Positions 36,271-60,746 of a DNA stretch of 64,000 nt are shown piece after piece. The stretch's first letter is position 1. Each line of letters starts with the position of its first letter. Under the pieces are notes generated by a model that did not search any database, was not told the DNA's origin, and worked only from the letters and a program-made list of their open reading frames with translations. The position numbers and the translations under genes were made by a program. This DNA comes from Pomphorhynchus laevis (Eukaryota > Acanthocephala > Palaeacanthocephala > Echinorhynchida > Pomphorhynchidae): the NCBI GenBank assembly GCA_012934845.2, contig WNNJ02001307.1, forward strand, positions 62,001-126,000. The letters run 5' to 3'.

Positions 36271-36334
36271 TTAATATCTGATAGCACATAATTCTGGATC
36301 AACACCATCACATTTATTGCCATTAATCCGGATG
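36271..36334 (-). CDS. LRR gene exon v, terminal exon with stop
   Basis: After TTCTGTTTAG the exon reads IRINGNKCDGVDPELCAIRY and stops (TAA). One leading base completes the upstream phase-2 codon. The two Cys and NGN resemble the capping end of an LRR domain. The AATAAA at 36184 lies just beyond. No transmembrane stretch precedes the stop. Confidence 0.6.
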
Positions 36335-36703
36335 CTAAACAGAAAATAATATTCAAAACAACTGAAGGGGAAAAGGTAAACGATTATGTTGTAATTACAA
36401 AGTTAGCCACAGAGAAAGATAAAACAATTAATATTCCTAATTTTAAGTTACTAAAGTCTTGTTTAATTATAGTATTTAATTTAAAAAATAATAATTTTGG
36501 TAAAAAATTAAATTTTATATAAAAAATGTATAATTTTAAAAACTAATAAATTTTTAAATTAAAGGTAGAACCTTCTCCTTCCAACGCTGATTTGATTAGA
36601 AATCAGAAATGATTTCAATTAAATTTGCAAAATGTAAGACGAAAGTCTTTCATTAAACTAATTGCCAATTAAGCAGATGAGTCGAATGATCGTCAACCAA
36701 CAT
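36335..36703. other. Intron sequence of the LRR locus
   Basis: AT-rich. A partly open stretch around 36385-36435 (minus) reads NLKLGILIVLSFSVANF but does not fit the phase-2 pattern, so it is not called as an exon. Confidence 0.35.
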
Positions 36704-36795
36704 TTAAAGAACCGAAACGTGAAACGTGAGTATCGGATCAGTAGCTGATGAGGTCCACCAATACTGAAATGTAGAGTACTGCTGTTGGATTTTAC
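36704..36795 (+). repeat. Relative of the SINE tail at 30080-30170, with hammerhead boxes
   Basis: CCGAAACGTGAAACGT (from about 36712), then CAGTAGCTGATGAGGTCCACC, and later GTACTGCTGTTGG. It aligns end to end with the minus strand of 30155-30080. Complementary 5-mers flanking the boxes changed together between copies (GGGTC/GACCC there, GAACC/GGTCC here, four of five pairs kept). Confidence 0.6.
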
Positions 36796-37160
36796 ATAGG
36801 ATGAAAGTAGCGTGCAGGAAAAAAATTATCATCAAAATTTCAAAGGTATTGATTGCACAGGCAAATGGACTTAAAACTAGAAAACAAACTATAGAATAAA
36901 TTTGAATAATAAAATTAGGAAACAACTTATATATAAATGTATTTAGTATAATTCTCTATAATTCATGTAGCATACATATAAAAATTTACAATAAATATGT
37001 TTTAAACAAATATGTATTTAAATATATGAATTCAATATATAACAATTTTTTTATATCTTACAAATTATTATAAATGTATCTTATATAATATTTTGAATCT
37101 TTTTAAATTTATCTCAATAAAAATAAATGTTGATAATAATTTAAAATAATCATTTTACAG
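36796..37160. other. AT-rich intron sequence
   Basis: No exon or repeat recognised. Confidence 0.35.
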
Positions 37161-37182
37161 TTCTCCTCTGCCTCCAGTATAG

Positions 37183-37330
37183 GGAGGGATCCGGCATGAC
37201 GGATCCCTCCAGTAGTGGGAGGGATCCGTCATGGATCCCTCCCACTTTCCCTCCCACGGCAGTCGAAACGTCATTTCGGAGTGATGACGAAACGGCAGTC
37301 GTCATTCTTTCGTGTCGGGCTTATATGTAT
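37183..37330. repeat. GC-rich hairpin cluster in an AT-rich intron
   Basis: Two adjacent strong hairpins: 11 bp at 37183-37210 (GGAGGGATCCG, loop GCATGA) and 12 bp at 37216-37244 (TGGGAGGGATCC, loop GTCAT). Then CGAAACGTCATTTCGGAGTG and TGATGACGAAACGGCAGTCG follow in a GC-rich block to about 37320. Probably an inserted small element; family not recognised. Confidence 0.65.
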
Positions 37331-37783
37331 TACAAGAAATTCATGCGGAATGGTGTCATTTGAGTAAAATCATTTTACAGATTTTAAGTTTGCTTGCTAT
37401 ATGTGTATATAAATACACATGAATTTTAGTAAATACTAAAATTCAAAAGGTGAACACATTTATCGAGGTATCTTTATTAAAGATAAATATATATATAAAT
37501 TAAAATAGCCCAACTAAAAAGTTATTAACTTATCATACAGATTACATATGAATTTACAAAAAAAATATTTTAAAAGAATATAATTAACTGTTGGTAATAT
37601 GTTTGAATATAAAATTAACACATTAAAATTGCAGTTATCAGCTTATATCATATGCCATACATACATCGTTAATTAATTAACGATGTATTATTAATAAAAA
37701 ATTAACATCTAATTAATTTTTAGTCTGAAAATAAATTTATATATTTTAGATATATTAATTATTGAAGAAAATAATTAGATTAC

Positions 37784-37849
37784 CTTGTGACTGGAAAAGA
37801 ATAATTCATTGATGCACATTTTTCAAAGCGATTATTTCGGACCACTAAC
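37784..37849 (-). CDS. LRR gene exon u
   Basis: 66 bp after TTTTTTCAG and before GTAATC. Encodes LVVRNNRFEKCASMNYSFPV. The NNRFE core fits an LRR loop. It is the only internal exon whose split codon starts AG rather than NT, so its donor is the least secure. Confidence 0.55.
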
Positions 37850-38452
37850 CTGAAAAAATGAAATTAATAATAATTTTATAAATAACTTTATAAAATCCTT
37901 TCTAAATAATTTTAGAAATACTTGCAATATAATATTTATATATTATATATCTATAATATTATATTTACTTTATATTTAAAGTAAATATAAAGATATTAAA
38001 TATATACCAGCTTATAAGTACGTAGAAACAACTTGTATAGATAATAAAGTTGTATACAATAAAGTGGACAAAGCGACTTTATTTGGCAACTTCTTATATA
38101 ATTGAGCAAATGAAGTTAAACGCTTATAAACATTTTTATTGCAATTTTCCATTGCATCTTTAAATTGCATAAAATTGTACATTAACCTCAACTATCTTTT
38201 GGTAATTTATCAATAATTGAAAGTTCAATTTTTAATGGATATCAGTGTTTATCAACTTTAAATCATATGAACATATGATGCTTTATTCCTAAAATAATAT
38301 TTAAATAAATATTGGAAATAGCATTTCATACGGCATTAAATAAGTCAATTACATGCTATAAATTAAAGTTTTGTATATTAAGTTTATTAATGTTTAGTCG
38401 ATATTGAATATTTATTATTTTGTAAAATTAAGTGCTACTTATTTACACTCAC

Positions 38453-38515
38453 ATTTCACAATTGCTAGTAACGTAGCATGCAGCATAAAGACTTTTATTA
38501 TTTCCGGACACATTT
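38453..38515 (-). CDS. LRR gene exon t
   Basis: 63 bp after TGTATTTTAG and before GTGAGT, phase 2-2. Encodes NVSGNNKSLYAACYVTSNCE. NxSGN is shared with exon i; the second half is diverged. Confidence 0.6.
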
Positions 38516-38563
38516 CTAAAATACATTTTATATAATTTTACAAACTCAGGTTTTTGAACAAAC

Positions 38564-38635
38564 ATAGCGATATTTGAGCTTAATGAATCCGAAAATCCCA
38601 TATTGAGATAGTAAATCCGATTATTGCTAAGATCT
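38564..38635 (-). CDS. LRR gene exon s
   Basis: 72 bp after TTTAATTTTAG, phase 2-2. Encodes DLSNNRIYYLNMGFSDSLSS, a canonical DLSNNxI LRR start. The donor is GTTTGT, weaker than the others. Confidence 0.7.
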
Positions 38636-38749
38636 CTAAAATTAAACTTAAATTACATTATTAAACAAAATAATGTTAAATGGATAAAACGAAATAATTC
38701 ATTTAATGTTTTAGCTTTTACTGTATAAAAATGTAGAGATTACCAGTTA

Positions 38750-39480
38750 CAGAAAGGAGCCATGTAATTAAAAACCTATTTAATTTTTTAATCGTTTTCC
38801 AATTTAATGGCGAAATTTGCTTCGATGATATCTTCTAAAGCAGGAGTGGGGGAACCTTTTGGCTTATTAAGGCCATTTTACAATTCATCTTTCCTCACAG
38901 ACGCCGCATTAAATAAATAAGTTTTCTGTTTGTAATTTTGCCAATATTTTCTATTTATTCAAATTAATGACTTCTTTGATTTTGTTTTTTTGAGAGCTTT
39001 TTGATGTCAGTTTCTATCATAGTTGTTCTTAGTTTCAATTGGCCTTCTAAACGCTCAACTGTCAACTTTGTTCTCAGTGAATTCTTGATTTGCGGATTCT
39101 TGATTGTGAATTCTTAATTCACGAATTCTTGAATTATTGATTATTAGTTTAATAATCAACTTTGTTTGCTTTAATGTTTTAGCTTTTTCAGTATAACATA
39201 ATAATATAAAAATTATTATTCACAGAATAAATCAAGTAATTAAAAATCTATTTCATTTTTCATCGTTTCCCAATTTAATGGCGAAATTCGCTACGATGAT
39301 ATCTTCAAAAGCAGGAGTGGTGGAACCTTTTTGCATATTAAGACCATTTTACAATTCATCGTTCCTCATAAAAATATAAAAATTACCATTTACCATGTAA
39401 TTAAGAACATATTTCATTTTTTATTCCTCGTTTTTTAATTTAATGGGGGAATTCGATTTGATGATATATTCTAAAGGCTT
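38750..39480. repeat. Three diverged tandem copies of an unclassified repeat
   Basis: ATGTAATTAAAAACCTATTT...AATTTAATGGCGAAATTTGC...AGCAGGAGTGGGGGAACC at about 38760-38900 recurs at about 39230-39370 and, truncated and more diverged, at about 39395-39480. The copies share TTTACAATTCATC at their ends. No ORF; inside an LRR intron. Confidence 0.75.
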
Positions 39481-39894
39481 TCCTACTTGTTCCCATATAT
39501 ACACGACACAATACACAGACTCTAGTAAACTGACGTGAATTGATTTATGTCTGAATTGTTTTAATTTTAAATAATAACATTTATATTACATAAAATTAAA
39601 ATCTAAAATATTGTTATCGCTTTTTATTTATAAATATAGATTTAATTCCAAATATAGTCGAGAAATCAATACGAATCAACAGAATCAAAAGTAATTAGCA
39701 TAATCAACAGGAATCAACATAATCAAAATATTGATTAGGTTGCCAATTAACCACAACTAACAAACCTGGAAATATAATTTCCATTTTGGAATATTCAGAT
39801 TGGAAAATATCCGTATTTAATTTTTTGTTTAGATGTAATCTAAAGTAAATTTGCCTTTGTAGGTTGGAGTTTATATAATCAACTCATAATAAAT

Positions 39895-40300
39895 ATTAAT
39901 ACTGAAAATTAATTAATTATTAATTAATTATTATTAATATTAATATTTATTAATATTTATTAATTATTAATAAATATTTAATCTCTGCATATGGAATGCA
40001 CAGATTAAATGAACATTTTTCGTTTAATAGGTTTACGAAATGTTGGAAATGATTAAGATTACATTCAATTAAGAATTCAGTTTTTTTAATAAATAATATA
40101 AATTATTTCGCCTCTAAAAACACAATATCTAGAAAATATAAAGTAAATAATTAGATAATTTATTATCTAATAAATTAATCTATTATTAATTTATTAATAA
40201 TATTAATAAATTAATTTATAATTAATTAATTAATTAATTAATAAATTAATTTATAATTTGTTATTAATTTATTATTAATCTATTATCCACAAGTTATCAT
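39895..40300. repeat. Low-complexity TAAT/TTAA-rich tract
   Basis: Dense TTAATTAATTAT and TAATTAATTAATTAATTAAT runs, for example 40217-40245. No exon. Confidence 0.7.
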
Positions 40301-40315
40301 TCAAACGGAACTTAC

Positions 40316-40387
40316 ATTTTGCGAAGAAGTATACATTTCGCTACAAAGTTTAGATTAACCGTAGATATGAAATTGTTTGAAAGATCT
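40316..40387 (-). CDS. LRR gene exon r
   Basis: 72 bp after TGTTTTAG and before GTAAGT, phase 2-2. Encodes DLSNNFISTVNLNFVAKCIL, a textbook LRR unit. One of the clearest exons of the locus. Confidence 0.8.
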
Positions 40388-40961
40388 CTAAAACACCAGA
40401 TATTTTTAAACAATAAGTATATGTCAATAAATACAAGCTATTTGCTATCGTTCCCGATTCTACTTTATTTAAATATAAGGTAATTAAATCAATAAATGCT
40501 TAGTAAACAATTCGAAGGCTAATGAATACAAAAAAAATAGGATTGAAAGGAAATAGTGATACGAAAGAATATATCATTCGAGTAGTTCAATTCGCTATTG
40601 TGCAATCTAATGTGAATTTTTCAACATATGATATTTATTTGAATCTTTAGTATTTCATTTTAGTTGCAGCAGGCTAACAATTCTAAATTCCGGCAGCGAG
40701 GTATACTTCAAGTATATATTTAATTAAAAAAATATTTTTGAATGTTTGAAATGTAAGTAAATAGAATGCGTATTCTATTTCTTTAGATTTGATATCAGCT
40801 AATATAAAATCGTACTATTTTGCTCTAAATTCACTCACAATAGCTGTAAATTGTAATTATAAAATTCTCCAAACTGGTTGTCAACTTGTCTTATTTCATT
40901 AGAAGACAGAATTCTAAATAAACAATTTGATTATAGCATACAAATGGTTTTTAGAACCTAC

Positions 40962-41033
40962 AGATTTGTTAGCTGCGAACAGTGTTTGAACAGCGTGCGC
41001 GGTAAATTTGTAATTCCTCCTGAGCTGATGTTA
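40962..41033 (-). CDS. LRR gene exon q
   Basis: 72 bp after CTTATTAG and before GTAGGT, phase 2-2. Encodes NISSGGITNLPRTLFKHCSQ followed by LTN. The GITNLPxxLFxxCxQL spacing is a good LRR match. A shorter 63-bp version using the next AG is possible. Confidence 0.75.
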
Positions 41034-41864
41034 CTAATAAGATCAAAAATAGTTTTGTTTAACATCATTTGCTTTGTTTTCTTACAGAGTTTTTAAAAGT
41101 ACGTTACCACAGCAAAACTTTTCCGGTTGGAAGTTGACGGCTGTTTTATGAAGAATTCTAATATATAAATACAATAGAACTTGAATTTATGACTTTGCGA
41201 GATATATGACAATATAATATAATAAATATATCATTAAATTATTATCTTATATCATATTAGTCATGTATATCATATATGACTTTTCCATTTTTTATATCTT
41301 TGTACAACACAAGTGATGGGGCATTGATGTTTATTTATAGAATTTAGCTTTTAAGAATGCGTTGAAACTGGATTCAATAATCATTAATTCATTATATAGA
41401 AGTACATAAAGTTACGGTATGGAGTTAAATTGTATTTTTTAGATTGCAATTCAACTTGAGATCGTATTTTAAATAATGTTTAGAGTAAATATCTATTCAG
41501 TGTTAAATTGAGTAAAAAATATATTATTTTACTGCAATTCGAAGTTCAAACATGAAATTTATGTTCAAAAACATTATTTTTATAATTTATAAAACATGGC
41601 ACAAGATGACGCGACATCTAAATGATATTAATTGTTGCATAGTACCACATGTAAATAACAAACAATTATAACTGCTGATCTTTATACAATCTTCACGACA
41701 AATGCCTTAGACACAATAAATTTAACCGAAACGAACTGACACGCCTTTTACAAGAAAACAATAACGTGTTTTAATCATCATTCAATCAGACATTATACAA
41801 TAAATTAATAAAGAACTAAGAGACTATTTTTCTATTATATAGATAAAACGTTGCAAATACTCAC

Positions 41865-41915
41865 ATTTTATGCAAGTGGCCCTTATTAGAGAGGTCAATC
41901 GAGTCGTTAATCAAA
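41865..41915 (-). CDS. LRR gene exon p
   Basis: 51 bp after AATGCAG and before GTGAGT, phase 2-2. Encodes LINDSIDLSNKGHLHK. Shorter than a full repeat, but splice sites and phase agree with the array. Confidence 0.5.
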
Positions 41916-42061
41916 CTGCATTCAACGATTTTACTATGGAAGAACAGTCAAAGCATAAAATACCATCACACAATCAGAAAATATTATCACAAATTATGCA
42001 AAGCATGTATTAGCAATTTATTTAAACATTACAAAAAATTAGGGATAAACGGTGTACTTAC

Positions 42062-42127
42062 ATTCTTTGAAGATACGGTACAAAGCCAAATATATCACTG
42101 TGCACACTTGTGATATTTTGTAAATGT
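42062..42127 (-). CDS. LRR gene exon o
   Basis: 66 bp after TTTAAAATAG and before GTAAGT, phase 2-2. Encodes HLQNITSVHSDIFGFVPYLQ. It starts with the same HLQN as exon h, which suggests the two derive from one ancestral exon. Confidence 0.75.
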
Positions 42128-42279
42128 CTATTTTAAAGTAAAGAACAATTACAGTTATCGTAACATTTTATTAAAAATTAAAATTTTTAAAGTTACAAAT
42201 TAAACTTACTAAAATATTAAAAGAAACAATGTTTAAATTTTCGACTTCTTAATTAAAAGTATATAAACAATCAACTTAC

Positions 42280-42351
42280 AATATTTGAAGTTTGTTTAGG
42301 AAACGGAAGTGTGAAATTTTGTCGTATGTAATATTTCCATTTTTAATTGAT
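42280..42351 (-). CDS. LRR gene exon n
   Basis: 72 bp after TTAAATTAG and before GTAAGT, phase 2-2. Encodes SIKNGNITYDKISHFRFLNK, ending LQI. LRR-like in the second half (ISHFRFLNKLQI). Confidence 0.65.
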
Positions 42352-43678
42352 CTAATTTAAACGAATGTATTAAGCTTAAAATATCAAAAATCTTTCTGAA
42401 ATTAATAAATTGATAATATCACATATAATAAAACCACATTTTATCGAATAACAATTAAAAAATACACATTTTGAATTTAATAAAATAATCTAAAACCTTT
42501 ATTTAAATACAAAATTTAATCTATTTTAAATATACAAAAGTGTTAACATCTTGAATTTTTCTCGATTATTAATTTATAAGTAAATTAAATAGATTGGCTT
42601 TTTTATAGTCAGTACTATTAATAAATATAAAAACCAACTCTTGTTGAGTTTAAAAACCTCTGGCTGTGGAACACAAATTTAGATATCAATAGTGGCTGAT
42701 ATTATAGACGCATCGAATCTTTGTGATATTATATTTACAAAAAATTTTAATATTTTTTTTATCATTTAATAAACAGCGTTTGGCGCACAAATATTCTGGA
42801 CACAATTCTGGAAATATTCTTGGATATTGAATTATTATACGTAATTTGTTTCAAAGAATAAAATTAAATTACTTTTTATAATTAGTTTACACAATAACAG
42901 TTGAATATTAAAACCAACAAATTTATAATTAAGTAACAACGACAATTTCTTGACAAGAAAAAATATAAGTAACACAAGATTTTTCTTGTTAACCACTGGC
43001 CGAGTGTGGGGTCGTGGAGGCAGTGCACGAACCAAACTACTCCAGACATTAGTCGCTTGGAGTTTAAATTAATCTTAAGATGTTAATTAATAGTTAATTG
43101 TTTTATTAATTGCGAGTCTCTCTTAAGAGTTTTTATGGAACTCCGCTATTCAATTCAAATATAAATAGTATGACTTAAGTCAGTTATGAATAAGTTTTGA
43201 CTAAAGTCAATGAATATTTTCATCGACTACTATTGAGGAAATTACCATTGATTAGTATTAACCATTTTTTGCAATTAAAAAATCGTATAATGTTATTTAA
43301 CAATTCTTAAATAACATCTCTTAATAACATCAATTATTAAAATGGAAATTGTTAAAATACTTTAAAAATAATAAATATTATTTAGAATATATATTTATAA
43401 TTTGTTATATATTTATCTATAAAACTTTATTATATTCAATTAAGTAAACAATTGAATATTTAAATATCTTTTGAAAATCGCATGCTAAATGATTCTTATT
43501 AAAGAAATACAATTATTTAAGGCATTTATTTCAAACAGCTAAATAATACAAAAAATGAAAAATAGATTCTCAGCAAAAAAAATAATATAATATTTAAACT
43601 GTTTTGTAACTGATAGGTTAATTATTTAAAACAGATGTTCATATTGAAACAAGCAACATTTAACTTTGTTTTACATAC

Positions 43679-43750
43679 AGCCATCTCATACGAACGAAGG
43701 AAACAAATATTGGATAGTCATCAAATGTTTCTCCGTATTGTTCTATAACT
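43679..43750 (-). CDS. LRR gene exon m
   Basis: 72 bp after CTCTTTTAG and before GTATGT, phase 2-2. Encodes VIEQYGETFDDYPIFVSFVR. Diverged, recognised mainly by length, phase and splice sites. Confidence 0.6.
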
Positions 43751-45328: not shown

Positions 45329-45394
45329 AATTTAGTTAAGCACGGCAATATTAGATGAAATGGCGTTATCACATGATAAGATGATGCAATTTTC
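45329..45394 (-). CDS. LRR gene exon l
   Basis: 66 bp after ACACTTTCAG and before GTAAGC, phase 2-2. Encodes KIASSYHVITPFHLILPCLT. Diverged LRR-like, hydrophobic. Confidence 0.55.
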
Positions 45395-47764: not shown

Positions 47765-47765
47765 A

Positions 47766-48142: not shown

Positions 48143-49387
48143 AAATGTAACAAATATTTATATAATAATTTTAATATCATATTATTTGATATACTATTTA
48201 AAATAATATCTTATTTATATAATCATACTATTAGGTGCATTTAATATTTCCAAATATCAAATATATTGACTTTAGAAATAAAATTACTTTTGAAACAAGT
48301 TCAAATATTAATATTTACGCTTTAATGAATAGGTTATTTTGGAGAATATCGGTAGGACAATCGGCATTGTATGGATTTCTAGAAAATAAAAAAAATATTC
48401 AGGTTTTAGAAACAAATATTTCGTGAGATACACCTTTAAATTAATTTACAATAATCGATTTTTAAATTTTGGAGAAAAATGTCGTCGACTGTTTAATATC
48501 AAATTGTTAGAAATAATTCTCTACAATTTCATTGTGCAATCAAAATTGTAAAGAATGAATTTCAGCGTGTACTGGAACATCATTTAAATAAAATCGCATT
48601 CCGTTGGAAATCATCATATTTCGTGCAAATGGCTGAGTTAAAGAAATAATCATAGATTATTTTAAGAGGAATTTGATCAGGGAGTAGCACTAAGATTAGT
48701 TTCGGCAATTAATTTTGAAAATTGTACGCTCTTTAAATATTACAAAACTCATATTGTATGCGGTTATTAACTGATCGCATAAATCTACGAGACACTATAT
48801 AAAGATGGGAAATGCATTATTGGAGAAATGTGTCCTGAATAATAGGTCTTTAGTAGCATCTAACGAGAAACAATACATTTATCAATCATCCAGACAGTAT
48901 ATAGCAGTCATAATTACAAGCAAGGTGAAGTGAACCAGAAACAATAGGTCCTTCGAGCATTTGTTAAGAAAACAAATGCTCTTTGTTTGATGTTTTTCCA
49001 AAATCATACGTCGATAATTTCAGATACGTGTAGTTGATATACAAGGAAAAATAAAAGTATAGGTGATAGGAAAAATAAAAGTATAACCACTTGCGTTATT
49101 CGATGGCTGATATACTCAAAAAAATTAAAAGCATATGAAATTAATTTAATTAAAGCATTTTAATAGCAAAATGGTTATGCCCATTTTTCAATATGCCCAT
49201 TTTTCAAATGGCTATGCAAATAATAAAAATATAAGTCGTGCAGTAGAAAAAATCTGATTGCGTTACATATCTCGAAAGCATTTTGATGAATAAACATTAA
49301 TTAAACATTTAAAGATATTTATGTTTAAATTGACGAGATGCAGTAGATACAAGTACATTATTATTTAAAAGTTAGATAGCAACTTAC
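48143..49387. other. AT-rich intron sequence
   Basis: Between LRR exon k and the repeats. Short ORFs only, none LRR-like. Confidence 0.35.
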
Positions 49388-49459
49388 ATAAAAAAAGAAT
49401 TTATCAATTTGGCATTGAATTGTAAACTATCGATTCTCATGCATTTACTGTTCAGGCAC
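49388..49459 (-). CDS. LRR gene exon k
   Basis: 72 bp after AATTCTTAG and before GTAAGT, phase 2-2. Encodes CLNSKCMRIDSLQFNAKLIN. LRR-like core CMRIDSLQF. Confidence 0.65.
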
Positions 49460-49748: not shown

Positions 49749-49808
49749 AGAACTACAAGATTCGTAAGGTTCTTTATCAGCACAGAAGGAATAGAAGTAT
49801 TACTGATG
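49749..49808 (-). CDS. LRR gene exon j
   Basis: 60 bp after GAATATTTAG and before GTAAGT, phase 2-2. Encodes ISNTSIPSVLIKNLTNLVV, a good LRR with NLTNL ending. Confidence 0.7.
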
Positions 49809-49981
49809 CTAAATATTCAAATAGTATGTAAAATTCTTTCTTGCTAAAACGGTTGGCTACTTTAGATATTCATTCGTTCCACTGTCAAAACTGATAACAT
49901 CAGAAATGTCGCTAAAATGGAGAACGAATTATACATTTGATGCAAAGCATTTGAATAGCAAATTAAATTAAACCAATTTAC

Positions 49982-50053
49982 ATTATTCGTAACTTATAGA
50001 GATTGCGAATATTGGTAAGATCAAGATATTTCAGCGGATTTCCAGAAAGATTT
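49982..50053 (-). CDS. LRR gene exon i
   Basis: 72 bp after GGCTGTTTAG and before GTAAAT, phase 2-2. Encodes NLSGNPLKYLDLTNIRNLYK. Clear LRR (NLSGNPL). Confidence 0.78.
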
Positions 50054-50233
50054 CTAAACAGCCTATTGTAAATTTCAAAAAAAAACATCTAAAAGTTACA
50101 GGATTTCCAGAGTTGGTGGTATAATGTCCAGAGAAGTTTCGATAAAATGAATATCACTTTCGACTAGGTATCTAAGCATCAACGTTATAATATAGATTAT
50201 TTAATTCTATTAAGTATTTTACTAATTACTTAC

Positions 50234-50305
50234 AACACCCGTAAGTCAGGCACCTGACTAGCCAATGAGCAATTCAAAGTATACAACTCAAAATTTTGCA
50301 AATGT
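50234..50305 (-). CDS. LRR gene exon h
   Basis: 72 bp after CCATTTTAG and before GTAAGT, phase 2-2. Encodes HLQNFELYTLNCSLASQVPD, ending LRV. Clear LRR ending (VPDLRVL). Confidence 0.75.
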
Positions 50306-50349: not shown

Positions 50350-50403
50350 AATTTCTTTAATTTTATCCATCGAGTTGTCACAATCATTGCAAAAAGTTTC
50401 TTA
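50350..50403 (-). CDS. LRR gene exon g
   Basis: 54 bp after CTGATAATAG and before GTAAAT, phase 2-2. Encodes KKLFAMIVTTRWIKLKK. Shorter than a full repeat; the phase agrees with neighbours only 44 bp and 72 bp away. Confidence 0.55.
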
Positions 50404-50475
50404 CTATTATCAGGCTGAATTACTGTCCTGCAAAAATACATTGTGCCACATGAAGACAAAAAGAGGTTATCTTAC

Positions 50476-50529
50476 AGTTCTAACAAAGTTGAGTTCAACT
50501 GAGTCAATTGTTTGGAATCCGACAAATGG
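50476..50529 (-). CDS. LRR gene exon f
   Basis: 54 bp after GAATGCTAG and before GTAAGA, phase 2-2. Encodes HLSDSKQLTQLNSTLLE. Same length as exon g; QLTQL is LRR-like. Confidence 0.6.
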
Positions 50530-50549
50530 CTAGCATTCTTTATATATCT

Positions 50550-51305
50550 AAACAACAGATTAAAATGAAAAATAATCAATTGCAGAGAACAAAGTTTGCA
50601 TTTTACGTCGAATCTTATATAAAATAAAATTAATAATTTGTTAATTATTTTAATTAACTTTTAATTTCATTTAATAAACTTTTAATTTAATTAAAGTTAA
50701 TTTCATTTATTTAAAGGAAATGTAATATAAAATTAATATAAAATTTAAGGAAATAAAAAATTCCTTTAAATAAAGAATTATTTATATCAATTTTATATAA
50801 TATTTTAAATATATTATTAATATAAGTATTAATATAAATATTTATATTAATATAAATATAGGAATGTTATGTATTTACAATGTGATGTAAAAATAAGAAA
50901 ACTTGAAATGTTGGATAATTTTATATTTTATATTTTTGAAAACGTAAAATAACTTTATCTACAAAAATTGTATGCATTTATTCCATCAATCACAATTGTA
51001 GACTAATGTTTGAAATGACGAAGCTTTTTGCCAACGGGTGTAGCAGAACAAATTATCCTTCCTTTTTAAGGAACTTAGAACTATAATGAAGTTTCGTATT
51101 AATAAAACGTATAACAGTCTTTTTGAAATTCAAGGATAGTGTAGATCAAGATGTGTTTATTAGCTTCTATGCTCGGTTTATTGTAATATGGCCTGTACCG
51201 GCTCTTACTAGTATTTAAATGCTCAATAAATTGACGTGTTCGGTTTAATTTGCACTCACAAATTTTGCTGTTTCAAGATGTCGTATCTACAGCATATACA
51301 ACGAG
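50550..51305. other. AT-rich intron part before LINE C3
   Basis: TTAAATTAA runs up to 50870; no exon recognised. Confidence 0.35.
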
Positions 51306-53560
51306 ATGATGATCATGTTTCAACCATTGTGCATATCTGATCCTGCTCTATCCGACCACTTCCTTGTTGCATGTTCTCTCCCTTTGTTAAAAATCAATGT
51401 TCCTTCGAAAATTATCTCGTGTCGTTCTTGGAAATTCCTCGACTTTTCCCTTCTTCGCTCTCATATTAACCGCTCTCCGTTAATGTATCCTTCTTCTATC
51501 TACCAATCCCCTAATTACTTATGTACCCTCTTTGACAATGTATTTTGCTCTATCCTCGATGAAATTCTTCCTTTTAAAACTTTTGTTCAACCACGGCAAA
51601 ATCTTGCAACATGGTTCGACTCTGAGTGTGTGACTTCAAAACGCCTCCTGCGTCGTTCTTTCAGAACTTATCATCGTTATCTCAGACTATCTTCAGAACT
51701 TGATTCATCCTTTTATCGTAACCAATTCTTTGCTCTTCGTCGTTCGCATAGGCAACTTCTGCGTTCTAAGGCACATAGTTTTTGGCGAAGCAAACTGGCT
51801 TTCGCTAATGACTCTCGAACTAAATGAAAAACTCTTAATTCTCTACTTTCTCGTTCCTCTGTCACCTCCACTCTTGATCCTTCTCAATTCTCCGATTACC
51901 TAATTTCAAAAACTGTTTCTCTAATCGATTCGATCATCGTCCTTCCACAAACTTATTGTATCTCGTCTGTTCTTATCCCTGAGTTCTTTTATCTACTTGC
52001 GGTATCTGAAGATGAGGTATCTTGCCTTCTTATTTCGTTAACTTGTAAGTCCTCTCCTGCCGATCCCATCCCTACTCAAATTTTCAAATTGTTGTCAACA
52101 GACTTCACACCTTTCCTTACCAGCCTCTTTAACTCGTCAATAGTGAATGGAATATTTCCTGTTCTTTGAAAAACGTCCATTGTTCGTCCCCTACTTAAAA
52201 AGCCCTCTCTTGACCCCTCTCTTCCTTCATCTTATCGTTCAATATCAATTCTACCAACCTTATCTAAAATTCTTCAACACCTTGTCTTAGCTCAGATAAA
52301 CAAGTATCTCTCTTCATCGCAGCTCTACCTTTCTTTTCAATCTGCTTTCCGCTCCAATCATTCCACCGAACTAGCATGTCATAAAGTATTTTCTGATCTG
52401 CTCTCCGCTCGTGACAAAGGACTGTGTAGTGTGGTAATATCGCTCGATCTTTCATCTGCATTCGACATTGTCGATCACAAAATCCTTATTTTTCGTCTTC
52501 GCTATCACTATGGTTTCTCTTCGTCCACCTTGGCTTGGTTCTCTTCGTATCTCTCCGATCGATCATTTTCCGTCCATTCTAATTCAATGTCTTCTCCTCT
52601 ATCTTCTCTCTCTTGTGGTGTACCTCAAGGTTCTGTACTTGGCCCTATTCTATTTACGCTTCTTCTTGGAGATTTATCTTGTATAACTAGTAAATTCTGC
52701 TTCAGGGTAATGCAGTACGCTGATGATATACTTCTTTATTCTCATTCGTCTCCTCATTCCCTAAGCCAACTTTTCGTATCCGCATCTAATTGTCTTCGTG
52801 CTCTATCAGAACATCTAATTTCTTTGCGCATGTCCCTAAATCCTACCAAATCTAAAGTGTTATGGATTTTACCCTCCACTGTTTCTGTTATTCCTCCATC
52901 TCTGTATCTTCAGAACACAATTATTCTTGCTGTAGATAAACTAGTATTTCTAGGTATTCACTTCGACAATAACCTGCATCTCGATCCCTTCATTCGTGAT
53001 AAAACTAGGTCTTCAAATATTCTTCTCCGTGATATTCGTCTCGTCAGAAATTCTCTAGATTTTAGTTCTTGTAAATCTCTTATCTCCTCCCTTCTTTTCC
53101 CACGTATTGATTACTGTCTTAGCCTTCTCGTCTTCTCTTCAAAGTCATCCCTTAAACCTCTTCAACGCCTCATTAACACTGCGGTGCGCATCCTTTTTCG
53201 ACTTCGTAAATTCGATCATATATCTTCATATTTATCCAAACTTGGATGGCTAAGTATTGAACATCGCGTTCGTTTTCGTCTGCTTTGCCTGACTTATCGC
53301 CTTCTCCATTGTAATTCTCCTTCTTATCTTTATCTGCCAACTCTAAGTGAATCTCGCTATCTTTCTACTCACCTACGTTCCTGCGATTCTCTTCTGCTAC
53401 ACGTACCTATTCACTCAACCAATTTCGGCCGTCGATCCCTACATATCGCTGCTCCTCTCCTTTGGAATTCCTTACCTAATCATCTGCGATCATCATCCTC
53501 ACTCCGATTTTTCAAAAAGCAGCTAAAATCGATGCTACTAAACGATTAACTTTTTTATCT
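51306..53560 (+). pseudogene. LINE family C copy C3 (L2-like), complete RT with two in-frame stops
   Basis: One reading frame from the end of the endonuclease (DPALSDHFLV) through the linker to the RT: STSLSLPSSY-type fingers, SVVISLDLSSAFDIVDHKIL, CGVPQGSVLGPILFTLLL, MQYADDILLYS. The C-terminal region (FPRIDYCLSLLVFSSKSSL, LFRLRKFDHISSYLSKLGW, LWNSLPNHLRSS) ends at 53549. TGA stops interrupt at 51825 and 52167; the second probably replaces Trp. The endonuclease is truncated before its catalytic Asp-Asn motif. Members C1 and C2 lie at 31.2-35.6 kb. Confidence 0.88.
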
Positions 53561-54315: not shown

Positions 54316-55630
54316 CGATAAATTGAATTATTTGGTTTAATTTGTTGTGTGGTGTTGTTTAATCTTAGTTTACTCTATCAGAAGCTAGATACACGCTACA
54401 AGATCTAATATCTGTGTCCTTGGAACCTTCTTGTGTATGATCAACTGTTGTCTGAGTCGTTGATGCCGAGTTTGCTTCATAAACAACTGTTTTTATAAGA
54501 GCTGGTAATTTTTTGCCGTAGTAACTTACATTAGAAATTATTTTGCTTACACGCTAACCAAGCGATATTTTTATGAGTATGATTGAGCCAAAACTACCGG
54601 GCGTGATCCTAGTGTTCAAAGGTCGTGGCACTAAGAATATGGCTTACTAAGTTTGACTGGTTATTTGCCTTCAAGAATAATCGGCTTAAGAGAAGGCACT
54701 ACTGCTCATGATCCTATCGGCACTTTCCGTGTTATTAGAAATAACCAAGTACAAAGAAGAACGATAACGAAATCAAACGTTGTCTAAAAGGCATTCGATT
54801 TTGATCCGTCTTCTGACCTATAATAGCTTACAAGAAAATCATTACAAGAATAAATGCTAAACAAGAATAAAGTGTTCATAGAACTAGCGTGATCAAGACA
54901 ACAACGGGTGTTGTCAAGAACCCACGAAGCAATGACTGATTCGTGTTATCAGATTGGTGAAATAATTCGGAAAAAATCTGCAGATTGGAAATGTACAGCG
55001 AAATGGAGCAATAGTACAGTTACATGAATTCTATCTGAATCTACTGTCATGTAGATAAAGTTACGCCATGTGTACAAAGTTCGTCATATTATGGAACTGG
55101 CAGCTTATGATATGATGAGAATATGTGAAACCATGGAAATTACGACAGTTTTTCATCTAGAAAGCGACAAAGAACAAACCAAGCAAGACAATAAATCCCG
55201 GTACAGACAAACCGAGCAAGATACCAAATAAGGTGCGAATAAACACAAGTAAAAATACATGCTTTTTAAAATAAAATGTGTAGGTTTAATGTAGTTTTAT
55301 GCGTAATGTAACACTATAAAATGCAATATTTCTCCGAAAATTTACTTCGGACTTTACAAATACAATTTTTATAAGCTCTCAATGTTCGAACTGAATCAAA
55401 CTTTTAAAAGTGCGATTTGTACAAACATACGTAGAGTATTTTTCTATTTATTATGAGATTTTTAATGTTTCGCATTTAAAATATATAAATAAATTAAAAA
55501 GAAACGACTAAAGTTTGGAGTAAATCAACCTTGGATATTATATATATATGCATGCCAGAGAAGCATCTCGGACAATGCAGTTTCTGGATATCATGATGGA
55601 AGGTTTCATATACTGTGTGAAATCTGGTAA
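54316..55630. other. Unclassified interval, no gene recognised
   Basis: Base composition is less AT-biased at 54320-55250 than in the surrounding introns, and stops occur in all frames. A decayed transposon is likely, but I could not assign a family. Confidence 0.35.
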
Positions 55631-55634
55631 TCCT

Positions 55635-55904
55635 GGATTCGTAGCCTAGCATTCAAGAGCGCAATCCAAGTACAGAGAGTGACAGCTCGAATCTCGGATA
55701 AGTCTAATTTCAAAAGGCGAAGAGTTGGTAGTCAGCCTTCTGACGAGCCCGGGGCTACCAACATGTGGCAAAAAGCGGGCGAAACGAAAACGGTTGTGGC
55801 AATGGCGCCGTTAGTAGTCAGGGTGTATGGAATTGGATATCATGAAAAAAGGATTCTGTAGCTGGTTTTCAATGCGAAAGTCACCTCGTGTGACCTAGCA
55901 ACTA

Positions 55905-55905
<1 letters not shown>
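55635..55905 (+). mobile_element. tRNA-derived SINE with hammerhead-like sequence
   Basis: The head shows an A-box-like TAGCCTAGCATTCAAGAGC (55642-55660) and a B-box-like AGCTCGAATCTC (55684-55695), as in a tRNA gene. Downstream, CTGACGA (55740-55746; position 7 of the hammerhead core is free) and GAAAC (55781-55785) are joined by a perfect stem (GCCCG 55747-55751 with CGGGC 55776-55780). A competing 8-bp pairing exists (GTTGGTAG 55724-55731 with CTACCAAC 55755-55762). The element ends in the (TA)n tract. Confidence 0.55.

Positions 55906-55908
<3 letters not shown>

Positions 55909-56001
<93 letters not shown>
55909..56001. repeat. (TA)n microsatellite, about 46 units
   Basis: Uninterrupted TA dinucleotides directly after the SINE; probably expanded from its 3' tail. 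Likely to be length-variable and prone to assembly error. Confidence 0.97.
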
Positions 56002-56003
<2 letters not shown>

Positions 56004-56065
56004 GTGGTATTGAACCGGTTGTTCACAAGATCACCCATTGATGATGCTTTCTATTTAATAATATT

Positions 56066-56242
56066 AATTAAAATCGTGATAATAATGTAATAAACACAAT
56101 TTATTTCAAAGCTTTCGGATACCCTTCTTCAGCAACGATTTCAAAAACACTTCTCTGTGTTTTTGAAATCGTTGCTGAAGAAAGGTTATCCGAAAGCTTT
56201 GAAATAAATTGTTTTTATTACATTATTATCACGATTTTAATT
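56066..56242. repeat. Large near-perfect palindrome, about 85-bp arms, 6-bp loop
   Basis: 56066-56150 pairs with 56157-56242 with only a few mismatches; the loop is TTCTCT. The arm contains GTTGCTGAAGAA and CCGAAAGCTTTG, an arrangement seen in Penelope-like element ends. It could form a cruciform, or an RNA hairpin if transcribed. Confidence 0.9.
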
Positions 56243-56293
56243 TATATATATTACAATATAACCGTTTCCCGAGATCCGTCGTGGATTCCATTA

Positions 56294-56951
56294 ATATTTC
56301 AAATTTTAGCATAAATTAGTGAAAATTAGTGAAAAAATTATAGTGAGAAAAAATTATAGTCAGAAAATTAGCACAAATTATATGGAGCCAAAAACATCCT
56401 TCGAGAGCACTTTTACTGGATTAACGTATAGGGTTAAAGGAAACAACAACTGCAAAAGTGTGAATTTGGTTTACCTTGCAACATGTTCAAAATGCTCACT
56501 ACAATACGTAGGTGAGACCAAACGCGCCATGAACTTATGAATGAATAATCGCCGGAATGACATAAAGAATAAGCGGCTAAACAATGATGGAGTTGTTCAA
56601 CATATCATAGAAAATCCGGAGCATGACTTTAAGTTTTGCATCCTCGAGTCAGGTTTCAACGACGACAGAGAACGAAGGAGTAAAGAAAACTTTTGGATCG
56701 GTCAAATCATGACCGACATATAGGGCTTGAACATACAACACAACTACAATCTACCGTAAATGTAAATAGAAGCTTACTTTCTTCCAGCCCTTGATGACGC
56801 TTGTGTTAGTATAAATTCATTGCATTATTAAACTGTACAACTGTGTATGTGTTGACAAAGGCTAGTAAAAACGCCGAAACGTTAAAATAATCTTGCAAAT
56901 TCCCGTCTTTTTTCACTAATTTTCACTAATTTGTGCTAAAATTTGAAATAT
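56294..56951. mobile_element. 658-bp unit with 44-bp terminal inverted repeats around a GIY-YIG reading frame
   Basis: 56294-56337 and 56908-56951 are inverted copies of one another (ATATTTCAAATTTTAGC(A)AAATTAGTG-type sequence, about one mismatch). The interior encodes a Penelope-type nuclease. This may be an end-to-end arrangement of partial Penelope copies, or a fragment able to move by itself. Confidence 0.7.
56319..56723 (+). pseudogene. Penelope-like element GIY-YIG endonuclease domain
   Basis: Two pieces in one frame split by a stop at 56538 (TGA after the NL of RAMNL). The C-terminal nuclease of Penelope-like elements is recognised from VNLVYLATCSKCSLQYVGET (the Tyr-Val-Gly core of GIY-YIG with its preceding Cys pair), then NNRRNDIKNKR, VVQHI, and the late catalytic Glu region ENFWIGQI. 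The RT that should precede it is absent, so this is a 5'-truncated copy. Its family RNA ends often carry hammerhead sequences. Confidence 0.82.
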
Positions 56952-57049
56952 ATATATACATATATACATATTTACATATACATATATCATAGATACGTAT
57001 ATATACGTATCCGATAAAGAGATCCTGTGAGAAAGCAAGCAGCGACAGC

Positions 57050-57959
57050 AATTAAAATTCCTGCCGAATATATTCATATACGTTTGAGTTAAGATGTCGA
57101 TGTGCTTCTGCTATGTATTAGTTGCGCTCCCACAATACGATTTCGCCACCTTTGTCTGCTGCTTTGATTACAATATCATCTCTTTTTCGCAGTTCAGCTA
57201 ACGCTTTTTGTTGATTTATTGATAGGTTTTTTCCGTATTTATCATTTGGTTTTATTGAGCCATATTTATCGATTAGTTCTCTACCCATTGCTTCGTGGCT
57301 GTATTCCTCTCTGAATCGTCCTTTATATGACTAAAACATTGTATACTTGCTCGTTTCAAAGAATTGATAAGATCAAGTCTTCCGAATTCTCTTTCACCAC
57401 ATGCAAAAGTTAAACCGTATGCAAGCACAGATGTGGTGTCGTTGGAGAGTTCTATATCTGTGAGATTGGCAATAAACTCATCTTGATCGAGCTTTGTTTT
57501 TTCTCTTTTAATAAGTGGTTTGAAGCGGCTTTTAAAATAGCGACGATTATGATGGTGTTCGATGGAACGGAGTTAATCAGGATGAACATATCGTTTGGAT
57601 AGATTCGATAGTTTAACACATTTTCGCCGGATAAGTCGATCATACAAAACTTTGTCACGTTGCTCAGACAGTCCACCATTATATATTTTGCCATAGAAGT
57701 AGCGTAGCGTGCATGTCAGTCTAATGCTTGCAGTTTGGAGGATAATATTGCATTTGGATTGCAGTTGGAGAACATCTAATGGATCTACTCCCTTTAGACA
57801 TGAACATATACGCTTCTTGAGGCGCAATCCCTTCGGAATTACATGTTTCTCGATACAAGCAGATAGAAACTGCATATGTGCTTCAGCGACAGTCTGTATT
57901 TGTAGATTCAGTCGTTTTCGCAGGGTCTCACGTGAGACGCGATCATATATTCGAGACAT
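57050..57959 (-). pseudogene. Penelope-like element N-terminal region
   Basis: The minus strand from 57959 reads MSRIYDRVSRETLRKRLNLQ, then GLRLKKRICSCLKGVDPLDV, then LYDRLIRRKCVKLSNLSKRY. In another frame it continues SFKPLIKREKTKLDQDEF, LTDIELSNDTTSVLAYGL, FACGEREFG, and ends with NCEKE and LSTNQQQTKVAKSYCG-like sequence. LIRRKCxKLxxLxKR and LSNDxxSVLxxGLxF are typical of the region before the RT in these elements. It faces the GIY-YIG fragment from the opposite strand. Confidence 0.7.
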
Positions 57960-57984
57960 CTGATTATGCGATCCGGGATCTTAT

Positions 57985-58200
57985 CCGGCGAAAATGTGTT
58001 AAACTTTCGAATCTATCCAAACGATATGTTCATCCTGATTTACTCCGTTCCATCGAACACCATCCTAATCGTCGCTTTTTTAAAGCCGCTTAAGACAACC
58101 TATTAAAGAGGAAAAACAAAGCTTGATCATGATGAGTTTATAGCCAATCTCACAGATATAGAACTCTCCAACGACACGAAATCTGTGCTTGCATACGGTT
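57985..58200 (+). repeat. Inverted duplicate of the Penelope N-terminal region
   Basis: The plus strand repeats the segment found on the minus strand at 57643-57405: LIRRKCVKLSNLSKRYVHPD and LTDIELSNDTKSVLAYG. The two arms are joined by the 340-bp 5' part of the minus copy. A head-to-head inverted partial copy is a known Penelope insertion structure. Confidence 0.8.
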
Positions 58201-58275
58201 TTTGTCTCTATAAAGAGTATTAAATGCCTAGCGATAGATTATTACCTTGTTCAAAATTTTAATTAAAATACATAC

Positions 58276-58344
58276 AATATCTGTAACTGGTCGAGTTCTC
58301 CATAATTAAGATATTCTAATGGTCGGTCGAGATTTTCCAGGTAT
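58276..58344 (-). CDS. LRR gene exon e
   Basis: 69 bp after TTCACTTTAG and before GTATGT, phase 2-2. Encodes YLENLDRPLEYLNYGELDQL. Good LRR ending. The next exon downstream (f) lies 7.7 kb away across the retroelement-filled intron. Confidence 0.7.
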
Positions 58345-58511
58345 CTAAAGTGAACAGTTTGTATACAAAATTATTTAAAATATATGCAAATTACAATTCT
58401 TTTAATTGAGTTTTAGGTTTGGGGTGAAAATCGTGAGATGTAAAAGGATTACCTAGAAAATTACTGTCATCAGCTGTAAAATTATAAATAATATAATAAT
58501 ATAGCGATTAC

Positions 58512-58580
58512 ATTGATTCGATGAAGTCGAGTTTGTAAAAGGCTTGAGACACATCTCGAAGAAGGTTATTGGACAAATCA
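58512..58580 (-). CDS. LRR gene exon d
   Basis: 69 bp after ATATTTTGCAG and before GTAATC, phase 2-2. Encodes DLSNNLLRDVSQAFYKLDFI, a canonical LRR. Confidence 0.8.
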
Positions 58581-58599
58581 CTGCAAAATATTAAAGTAG

Positions 58600-59500
58600 A
58601 ATAATATAAAATGAAAATAATTTATTTGATATTACTGTTCTATCGCAACCAGCAATTAATTAATAGGATGCAATTAACTTAAATTATCTAGCTAAATTAA
58701 CAAAACTAATATTAGCAACACCGCTAGCATTATGATAATTTTTGTGTTGATAATAAAGGAAATATAAGACTACATATAAATATTGTCTCGTTATGATTTT
58801 TTAGAGAAATGCAAAGTTTAAAATTAGATATTCAAATTATTTGCTGATTCATTTTAAATGAAAAATCTGAAACTTAAGAATTTATAAAAATACACTCTCA
58901 TAAAGCTCAAAATTCTAAATTTTTTCTTGGTTAAAATTACAAAAGCTTTTGTGGTATTTGATTAAATTTGCTTGCTTGAAAAAACATTTTTTATCCTATT
59001 ATCTATTAATAAATAGATAGATGTTTAATAATTCAACTTATGTATAATTTGATCTGTAATACTAGACTTGTACGCGATCATTGATTGTAGAAACGGACAA
59101 AGACGGATTTCGTAAAATTTGCAAATTAAAAGATATGTTTGAAAAGTTAGTGTTGATCTCAAGTTGTCCACATATTGTAAGATTTTTATTTTGTTGAAAT
59201 ATATTTTTGATCCAGAGCTATATAATCAATTCTAATTATTGAATTCTTATACGACTGGAGGCTAAATTATTCTACTGTGCTTTTATATATTTTAGTAGAA
59301 TACATTTACTAATCATTTTTGTAATTACAAAATGATGTTTACTGCAATAACTCTTTATTCTAGTGTCTATAACTGTAGTATGATATCTATCTTTTTAGCT
59401 TTTTAAATAACATAATAAAGTTTATAGCATTAAACTACAAAGTAGCTATTCGATTTTTCATTTTATTAAATACTTATAACCTAACAAGCAATTTAAATAC
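58600..59500. other. AT-rich LRR intron sequence
   Basis: No exon with the phase-2 LRR pattern and no mobile element recognised. Confidence 0.35.
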
Positions 59501-59504
59501 TTAC

Positions 59505-59576
59505 ATCATTTTTAGCGAATTCATCGGTGAGAAACTATAACGAGCTAGATTGTATATATTATTGTTTGACAGAATT
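59505..59576 (-). CDS. LRR gene exon c
   Basis: 72 bp after TTTTGAATAG and before GTAAGT, phase 2-2. Encodes I plus LSNNNIYNLARYSFSPMNSL, a canonical LRR. Confidence 0.82.
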
Positions 59577-59622
59577 CTATTCAAAACAATTTTTTTTCAA
59601 TTACAATTTACAGTATACCCAC

Positions 59623-59694
59623 ATTTCACGCAAATATCCGGCTTCAGCGAAAACTGATCTGTCGATATAAGCAATTTTATTATGACTCAAATCA
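59623..59694 (-). CDS. LRR gene exon b
   Basis: 72 bp after CAAACTTTAG and before GTGGGT, phase 2-2. Encodes DLSHNKIAYIDRSVFAEAGY then LRE. The clearest LRR of the locus (DLSHNKIxxIxxxxF). Confidence 0.85.
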
Positions 59695-60680
59695 CTAAAG
59701 TTTGTAATTTTATGAATAGAAAAAATTAATTATTAATCACATTGATTCAAGAAATATCAAAGTTGTAGCGATTTTTCCTAAAATGATAACAATTTCATTC
59801 GACGACATCGTTCTAAATATTATCTTTAATGAGTAAAAACGAATATAAAATACTAAAACTATAAATGCAAGATTTACTATGATGATTTTAAAAGAGAAAT
59901 ATATAAGATTTTAGGTTGATGGAATTATCAGATCGATAATTCTGTGCTGTTAAATTATCGATAATTCGATAATTTAACAGAACATTTGTTTAAATGTGCT
60001 ATTAAAATTATTATATAATTAACAATGATATATTATTTAAAATATATATCATTATAAATATAATAAATATATTTTGTTGACCAATTTGATTTGACGATAC
60101 TAAAGATTGGTTGTGAATATTAACACGTTTAAATGTCATCTTTATAATGTTAAAAAATATAATAGTTAACCTCAAATATATCTGATATTGTTCTTTATAT
60201 TTATATACACCCTTTATATTTAAAGGGTGAAATTTGTGAAGAACACACAATATATACGAAATGCCTTTGTTTTTGTTTAAGTGCTCATTTGTTTTATGGT
60301 GATGCTGCGATAACAATGTCCAGGAATCTAATTAATAATATTAACTAAAAACTATGAAATAAGTTAATAGAACTAATTGCCGTAGATATACATGAGTATT
60401 GATAATTGGAATAAAAAATTATATCCAGATCTTTACATCCACATTATTAGTAAGCATATGTGATTTTAATTATATTAGTAGATATGATTTGAGATTTGAA
60501 ACATTTAAAAGAGCTTTAATGTCTACTTCAGTGCGATACGCAGGCAAAAAGTATTTACCGAATCTATCTGTTTATCACCTTTTTATCAATATTCTAAGAC
60601 ATAAAATTTTGGTTCTCAATTTCAATAATTTAAAGATATTTACGAAAAACGATTTGAAATATTTATCACTCAATGCTTAC

Positions 60681-60746
60681 AGGTGACGAATATAAATATT
60701 GGGCGTTTTGAAATTCAAATTGGGTATATAGTTGTATGACAGGTCC
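60681..60746 (-). CDS. LRR gene exon a (most 5' exon found)
   Basis: 66 bp after TTTGTCTAG and before GTAAGC, phase 2-2. Encodes DLSYNYIPNLNFKTPNIYIR. Since it starts in phase 2, at least one exon must lie further upstream; a possible but poorly fitting one is at 61287-61229 (ITDNQTYLRQIFISNNGYIS). Confidence 0.75.

Follow-up and report, generated by a model that had tools for sequence, protein, structure and literature searches.

Scattered along the minus strand of a 64-kb stretch of DNA from the fish-parasitic acanthocephalan Pomphorhynchus laevis (contig WNNJ02001307.1; hereafter the window) are short segments with AG/GT borders and symmetrical phase 2, each encoding about one leucine-rich repeat (LRR), from a stop codon at 36271 to an exon start at 60746. 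Are these segments exons of one gene, and what kind of protein would they then encode? A preliminary description, made from the sequence alone, had taken them for a hidden gene of at least 22 exons encoding a rapidly diverging receptor or secreted protein.

Results

The segments are exons of a single P. laevis gene, GJ496_008467. This gene is not hidden, because a model of it (protein P0001, 839 aa, labelled "hypothetical protein") has been publicly deposited, with no function assigned to the product. Its structure is demonstrated by an exact, letter-for-letter spliced map of P0001 onto the contig (donors restricted to GT or GC, acceptors to AG), with 35 coding exons across 31.8 kb of the minus strand, from 68072 to 36271, and 34 introns that are all GT-AG and all in phase 2; the exon 4 donor is weak (gttcgac). 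The window holds 28 of the 35 exons (exons 8-35; Table 1), while the 5' end lies beyond it, exon 1 being at 68072-67969 (-). With the skipped exon 7b added, the count of 22 proves low, as does that of eleven exons of exactly 72 bp, which number 14 of 28 in the window and 15 of 35 in the whole gene. Exon length is 60-78 bp in 31 of the 35 (exceptions 51, 99, 104 and 111 bp), and the layout is one of single-LRR, 72-bp, phase-2 exons, a few of which are irregular repeats. At 30 of the gene's 34 junctions (24 of the 27 that belong to window exons) the split codon, reported as hydrophobic in 20 of 21 cases, encodes L, I, V, M or F, which account for 36% of all residues. The stop had been placed exactly, and exon 35 encodes 20 residues before it. 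Exon 7b, also read from the DNA, is intact and absent from the deposited model, and it is present in four of the seven paralogous proteins compared. The view that ORF-based methods miss such a gene holds for a six-frame LRR_8 search, which gave 37 matches in the genome and none on this contig, but not for annotation as a whole, which had produced the deposited model.

Table 1. Coding exons of GJ496_008467 in the window, with the skippable exon 7b
Exon	Coordinates	Strand	Length (bp)	Description	P0001 map
7b	60681..60746	-	66	LRR DLSYNYIPNLNFKTPNIYIRH; intact AG/GT; used in P0002, P0003, P0004, P0005	skipped
8	59741..59812	-	72	LRR	exact
9	59623..59694	-	72	LRR	exact
10	59505..59576	-	72	LRR	exact
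11	58512..58580	-	69	LRR	exact
12	58395..58463	-	69	LRR	exact
13	58276..58344	-	69	LRR	exact
14	50476..50547	-	72	LRR	exact
15	50350..50427	-	78	irregular LRR	exact
16	50234..50305	-	72	LRR	exact
17	50100..50171	-	72	LRR	exact
18	49982..50053	-	72	LRR	exact
19	49861..49911	-	51		exact
20	49749..49808	-	60		exact
21	49388..49459	-	72	LRR	exact
22	48319..48378	-	60	irregular	exact
23	45329..45394	-	66	irregular	exact
24	43679..43750	-	72		exact
25	42280..42351	-	72	LRR	exact
26	42062..42127	-	66	LRR; of the two deposited GJ496_007831 proteins, one lacks the homologue	exact
27	41865..41933	-	69	LRR	exact
28	41086..41157	-	72	LRR	exact
29	40962..41033	-	72	LRR	exact
30	40839..40913	-	75	LRR	exact
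31	40316..40387	-	72	LRR	exact
32	38564..38635	-	72	LRR	exact
33	38453..38515	-	63	terminal repeat with Cys	exact
34	37784..37849	-	66	terminal repeat with Cys	exact
35	36271..36334	-	64	last coding exon and stop codon; C-terminal IRINGNKCDGVDPELCAIRY	exact

A chance origin of this pattern, already doubted in the preliminary description, is rejected. Between 36 and 61 kb a hand-made LRR template (score at least 9) gave 11 hits on the minus strand and 0 on the plus strand, 100 dinucleotide shuffles of the same region gave 0.17 ± 0.40 (maximum 2), and the template combined with splice-site scores (score at least 12) gave 33 vs 2 over 134 kb; both template counts take in overlapping alternatives for one exon and are biased upward, because the template was drawn up after the exons were seen and 14 of the exons served to train the splice matrices. 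Two lines of evidence stand apart from the template: the deposited model, and the paralogues, whose borders agree. A narrow phase-2 LRR motif, to which the many irregular repeats do not conform, gave 10 minus-strand and 3 plus-strand candidates over the whole window, of which only a few were true exons; a wider motif resolved the question. A candidate exon at 48518 was dropped, its best scores being 15-31 of 112 in eight pieces of other copies, some of which end before that site.

P0001 comprises about 30 LRR units, nearly one per exon, and matches LRR_8 (92.5 bits, cut-off 27; E 1.3e-26) and LRR_4 (50.1 bits, cut-off 27) in a Pfam scan. Exons joined independently of the deposited model, a check that the preliminary description had named, match LRR_8 with an E of 1.3e-22. 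The same Pfam scan of P0001 found no TIR domain, such as a Toll or Toll-like receptor (TLR) would carry, no 7tm domain, such as LGR or glycoprotein hormone receptors have, no ROC-COR tandem of the kind found in ROCO proteins, and no LRRCT or LRRNT. Its start is hydrophobic and signal-peptide-like (MIYFIYIIFLKHALS), with A-x-S preceding a possible cleavage site, as judged by eye; glycosylation sequons are many, and a hydropathy scan found no hydrophobic C-terminus or anchor. Residues 202-220 (exon 8) reach a 19-residue hydropathy mean of 1.77, where 1.6 is usually the level of a membrane helix; the stretch lies outside the top windows of P0002 and P0003. From these features the product is probably secreted, in keeping with one half of the earlier proposal, while a membrane receptor, its other half, found no support.

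An LRR solenoid fold is predicted only. The structure prediction from seven sequences had a pLDDT of 36, and a second one included distant LRR proteins, which bias any repeat protein toward an LRR fold. In a Foldseek search with the predicted structure, TLR ectodomains filled all of the best 50 matches listed, with a query TM-score of 0.27-0.43 and an rmsd of 8-17 A, so that the predicted arc as a whole fits no listed TLR ectodomain well.

Seven further deposited P. laevis gene models (GJ496_001378, GJ496_007843, GJ496_007835, GJ496_007831, GJ496_007838, GJ496_001632 and GJ496_001628) carry exons of the same ordered set with conserved borders and are paralogues of GJ496_008467. The family is multicopy, with exon-1 matches at 10 places on 6 contigs. 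Two of these contigs, C940 and C2505 (L038, L039), are 100% identical across 3,258 bases, which may reflect duplicated assembly, a duplication of very recent date or conversion; in the first of these cases the places number 9. Among exon matches in other copies, which were compared as pieces, none read whole, both splice dinucleotides are retained at fixed length in 114 of 119, and four of the remaining five have them as well when a slight in-frame change of length is tolerated. Damage is seen in two other copies: in one the exon-27 match is interrupted by a stop, and in one the exon-20 donor is gone. Recent gene conversion is rejected as the source of the identical exon-8 peptide of P0001 and P0005, whose DNA has 5 differences in 72 bases.

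The exons of GJ496_008467 are dissimilar to each other, and such divergence had been taken to suggest a receptor or a secreted recognition or effector protein. As the sign of an arms race it finds no support: between gene copies, exons 14-20 have a median dN/dS of 0.31 and are under purifying selection, and conservation is higher at most strand positions than on the convex side. Diversifying selection is therefore rejected as a general claim for the concave face. Pooled pN/pS is 0.71-0.90 for exons 1, 2, 16 and 17 (0.90 for exon 17), 0.75 for exon 25 (one copy) and 1.3 for exon 5 (two copies), and in exon 3 changes are confined to amino-acid-altering sites (pS 0, pN 0.072), in pools that double-count one C1961 copy (L024, L040), exons 2-3 of one C713 copy (L032, L045) and the identical L038/L039, and that leave out exons 6, 7b, 22-24 and 31-35. 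Change in exons 1, 2, 3, 5, 16, 17 and 25 may thus be relaxed or locally faster, in a family mostly under purifying selection.

Discussion

We read the segments as exons 8-35, with the skippable 7b, of a gene of 35 or 36 coding exons whose product is a soluble extracellular LRR solenoid, modular by exon skipping, and assign this reading a probability of roughly 0.6. Splicing would join phase-2 exons, most of them one LRR each, into a soluble solenoid of about 30 units. Each internal exon begins and ends in phase 2, so that leaving out any one repeat would preserve the frame, and one gene could thus yield arcs of differing length and surface. The deposited paralogue proteins do differ by whole exons, and several paralogue models are shorter than GJ496_008467; these skips may be gene-predictor errors. 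In living worms, exon skipping would vary a probably secreted protein that likely binds extracellular proteins or glycans, in adhesion, matrix or soluble recognition.

The closest layout is that of brown algal LRR-ROCO genes, described in the available sections of PMC11378527 as having one LRR per 72-bp, phase-2 exon, with alternative splicing proposed to vary the LRR combination. GJ496_008467 shares this layout, but belongs to an animal, lacks ROC-COR and is probably secreted; the algal exons, in the same sections, are shuffled, whereas the P. laevis family consists of copies of a whole ordered exon set. Gonadotropin receptor and LGR ectodomains also have LRR exons of similar size and phase-2 introns (same sections of PMC11378527), and LGR4 is among the best PDB sequence matches, but our product lacks the seven-helix domain. 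Tetrahymena LRR genes, from the portion of PMC6564038 available, likewise combine long LRR-exon arrays, extreme phase-2 bias and nearby retroelements; their exons, however, are of 90 bp in near-uniform arrays and thousands of genes, compared with 72 bp, strongly differing exons and about ten loci found in P. laevis.

Among animal proteins, chaoptin, artichoke and Toll ectodomains are long extracellular LRR solenoids, and many of the named best matches outside P. laevis, among the matches listed in a profile search, are artichoke or chaoptin. The product could accordingly be a developmental or matrix adhesion protein of this type that has lost its anchor. We consider this unlikely: local-alignment identity to P0001 is about 22-35%, as expected for any long LRR protein, chaoptin and artichoke are membrane-anchored whereas no C-terminal anchor is seen in P0001, which also lacks any LRRCT or LRRNT match, and the family is multicopy.

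TLRs were not found in two surveyed acanthocephalan species, as far as the available part of that survey extends, and a soluble pattern-recognition family, binding microbes or host molecules, might replace LRR-TIR receptors in such a worm. The mostly purifying selection and the conservation of strand positions above the convex side make this quite doubtful, LRIM1 is only one of many LRR proteins at similar Z, and the TIR searches were six-frame, exon by exon, so that a split domain could escape them. The same mostly purifying selection, with no hypervariable surface seen, also makes delivery of the product to the fish or crustacean host improbable, even though the product is secreted-like, its genes form multicopy clusters and its close matches are in P. 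laevis only, among the best 120 listed per protein search of a database that may lack other acanthocephalan proteomes. A decayed gene or transposon-borne repeats resembling exons are very improbable, since despite retroelement frames in introns (reverse transcriptase at 52170-53549 (+), a weak endonuclease match at 61729-62400 (+)) and the two damaged copies, all 35 exons are open, all 34 introns are GT-AG, median dN/dS is 0.31, and the retroelement frames lie outside exons on the opposite strand.

A full-text literature search gave, among the matches listed, no account of LRR genes in Acanthocephala, and the word "leucine" is absent from the main texts (supplements aside) of the acanthocephalan omics papers PMC7310846, PMC12690905 and PMC9523657. 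From raw DNA alone, the portion of this 35-exon gene that lies in the window was read with almost every base in place, together with an exon that the deposited model lacks. A role in immunity or toward the host is, like secretion, binding and skipping, putative. One may speculate, as a long shot, that in a lineage apparently without Toll receptors this multicopy soluble family forms a recognition layer at the worm surface, the skipping of one-repeat exons producing many binding arcs from few genes. With GJ496_008467, the layout of single-LRR, 72-bp, phase-2 exons gains an example from an animal, an acanthocephalan, and with it a defined multicopy family in which LRR exon skipping is testable with existing RNA reads.

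Results

Exact mapping of P0001, the 839-aa hypothetical protein deposited for GJ496_008467 of Pomphorhynchus laevis (Acanthocephala), onto contig C316 (185,610 bases, in a genome of 249 Mb and 3,242 contigs) yields 35 coding exons, 28 of them inside the window. The many-exon leucine-rich repeat (LRR) gene of the preliminary description, put there at a minimum of 22 exons and called hidden, is therefore real, bigger than first stated, and was not hidden from annotators. P0001 was the top match to the protein of the joined exons in a search that returned 486 proteins at E <= 0.001, the best 120 of which were listed. All 34 introns (44-7,728 bp, median 128) are GT-AG and in phase 2, under a mapping script that accepted GC as well as GT on the donor side and AG on the acceptor side. 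Fifteen of the 35 exons (14 of the 28 within the window) are exactly 72 bp long, and 31 of 35 fall between 60 and 78 bp. Exon 1, which is signal-peptide-like, had been the sole candidate of an upstream-of-window search run before the protein was identified.

The same structure is visible in the DNA, where the minus strand at 36-66 kb carries a run of phase-2, stop-free segments with AG/GT borders, the majority encoding one LRR each. An initial narrow motif scan was weakly informative (10 minus-strand candidates, 3 plus). With a hand-made LRR template, 11 candidates scored at least 9 on the minus strand and none on the plus strand, against a mean of 0.17 (maximum 2) in 100 dinucleotide shuffles. 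This bears out the earlier doubt about a chance origin, with a bias: template and splice matrices were built with some exons already seen, so the independent checks, namely the deposited model and the copies, weigh more. It had also been stated that ORF-based annotation misses such genes. The gene is indeed invisible to a six-frame LRR_8 search of the genome (37 matches listed, none on C316), but annotators did model it.

Features of the GJ496_008467 region (window numbering)
Feature	Position	Strand	Remark
P0001 coding exons 1-35	68072 to 36271	-	
Exon 7b	60681-60746	-	66 bp
Reverse transcriptase frame	51249-53549	+	RVT_1 5.7e-30 at 52170-53549; within 7.7-kb intron 13
Endonuclease-like retroelement frames	61343-62400	+	weak Exo_endo_phos_2, under its cut-off; intron between exons 7 and 7b
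Retrotransposon polyprotein pieces	1418-2746, 5004-7472	-	RNase H and integrase (LTR type); one frame endonuclease-like plus reverse transcriptase
Peptide VINEILMYISRIICV(N/D)IKI	76402, 81716	+	outside window; probably a repeat element
Peptide VINEILMYISRIICV(N/D)IKI	46913	-	third occurrence
Long (AT)n tract	~55900-56000		

The gene has relatives. Matches to exon 1 and to exon 14 each occur at no fewer than 10 places, on contigs C316, C2505, C940, C713, C1961 and C587 (a listing of 67 matches, for which 54 out of 249 candidates were scored), with one more family fragment on C2156, and at least eight family gene models, the window gene counted, are among the deposited proteins listed. Among 119 exon matches in the DNA retrieved from other copies, counted without the overlapping L040 and without two L045 exons, 114 keep both splice dinucleotides and one has an in-frame stop. 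Of the five misses, four fall in exons 2 and 6, whose counterparts in the paralogues are three residues or one residue shorter and have AG or GT at a shifted position; the fifth, the exon 20 donor on C1961, is a real loss. GJ496_008467 is, as a gene model, a spliced gene of symmetrical, mostly one-repeat exons that is kept as a family.

Individual copies differ in other ways. A stop codon ends the exon-27 match of the copy in L042 (C713:132176-135415), and three deposited proteins (P0005, P0006, P0122) terminate after the exon-22 region. The C587 copy (L023, L043) is the most divergent (dS 0.43-0.54 against the nine others), has exons 13 and 14 separated by ~15 kb, and gives an exact exon match to none of the eight deposited paralogue proteins. 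The 5' ends of two family genes, L038 (C940:10059-13316) and L039 (C2505:267135-270392), are 100% identical over 3,258 bases, which may stem from an assembly duplicate, from conversion or from a very recent duplication; their middle parts differ (L020 and L033, 94.5% identity in 1,184 aligned positions). The C713 copy (L046) has 1.9 kb between two flanking matches that lie 4.0 kb apart in the window, and the intron-13 retroelement therefore probably arrived after the duplication.

Whole exons are missing with clean borders from several deposited family proteins. The two proteins of GJ496_007831, P0007 (404 aa) and P0121 (382 aa), differ solely by the exon-26 homologue. Intact in DNA are exons 2-3 missing from P0003 (L039, placed with P0003 because it shares contig and strand with L033, which matches P0003 in 8/8 exons), exon 11 from P0004 (L017), exon 21 from P0006 (L021) and exons 14, 15 and 21 from P0122 (L019). 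Such differences may be either in-frame single-repeat skipping by the worm or the gene predictor's doing. The right end given in the preliminary description, 60746, is the start of exon 7b, which has good splice sites and is absent from P0001. Among eight deposited proteins compared, homologues are present in P0002, P0003, P0004 and P0005 and absent from P0001, P0006, P0122 and P0007, the last being without the entire surrounding region; the C713 copy at 82.5-91.3 kb has the exon intact in DNA.

Discussion

Rapid divergence between exons had been taken to suggest a receptor or a secreted recognition or effector protein; as a sign of arms-race evolution it is not supported by the comparison of copies. 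Over exons 14-20 (152 codons, 10 copies, 45 pairs) our own Nei-Gojobori script gave a median dN/dS of 0.31 (range 0.08-0.70). By exon against the window copy, in pools that count some pieces twice, pN/pS was 0.71-0.90 for exons 1, 2, 16 and 17, 0.75 for exon 25 (one copy), 1.3 for exon 5 (two copies) and below 0.5 in the other 19 exons measured, with zero synonymous changes in exon 3. The strand and N turn (repeat positions 0-8) diverge from P0001 by 2-15%, the three positions leading up to the split residue (21-23) by 15-24%, and positions 9, 11, 16 and 18-20 by 28-34%, in a pool of exons 3-32 from six paralogues that includes a misaligned P0007 stretch (exon 7, 4/20 alike). With concave and convex sides assigned from the general LRR pattern, this would not be the pattern of a hypervariable binding face.

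The product is most plausibly a secreted LRR arc that would bind an extracellular protein or glycan, and that might be adjustable via omission of repeats. Six-frame searches of the P. laevis genome, which can miss a domain split between exons, gave no TIR matches (PF01582, PF13676), in line with the PMC8609888 survey, which records no TLRs in the Echinorhynchus gadi and Macracanthorhynchus hirudinaceus transcriptomes; one rotifer covered there, Epiphanes senta, does have a TLR. That the family stands in as a recognition layer is therefore a testable idea, one we regard as improbable.

The exon architecture has precedents. GJ496_008467 shares single-LRR, 72-base, phase-2 exons with the ROCO genes of brown algae, and the phase of its introns with gonadotropin receptors (PMC11378527 for both comparators); Tetrahymena has arrays of 90-bp phase-2 LRR exons with a LINE-like element nearby (PMC6564038). 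In the rotifer Adineta vaga an LRR gene may have been moved by a Penelope element (PMC3846280). What is new is the GJ496_008467-like family of P. laevis, built on an exon architecture that was already known.
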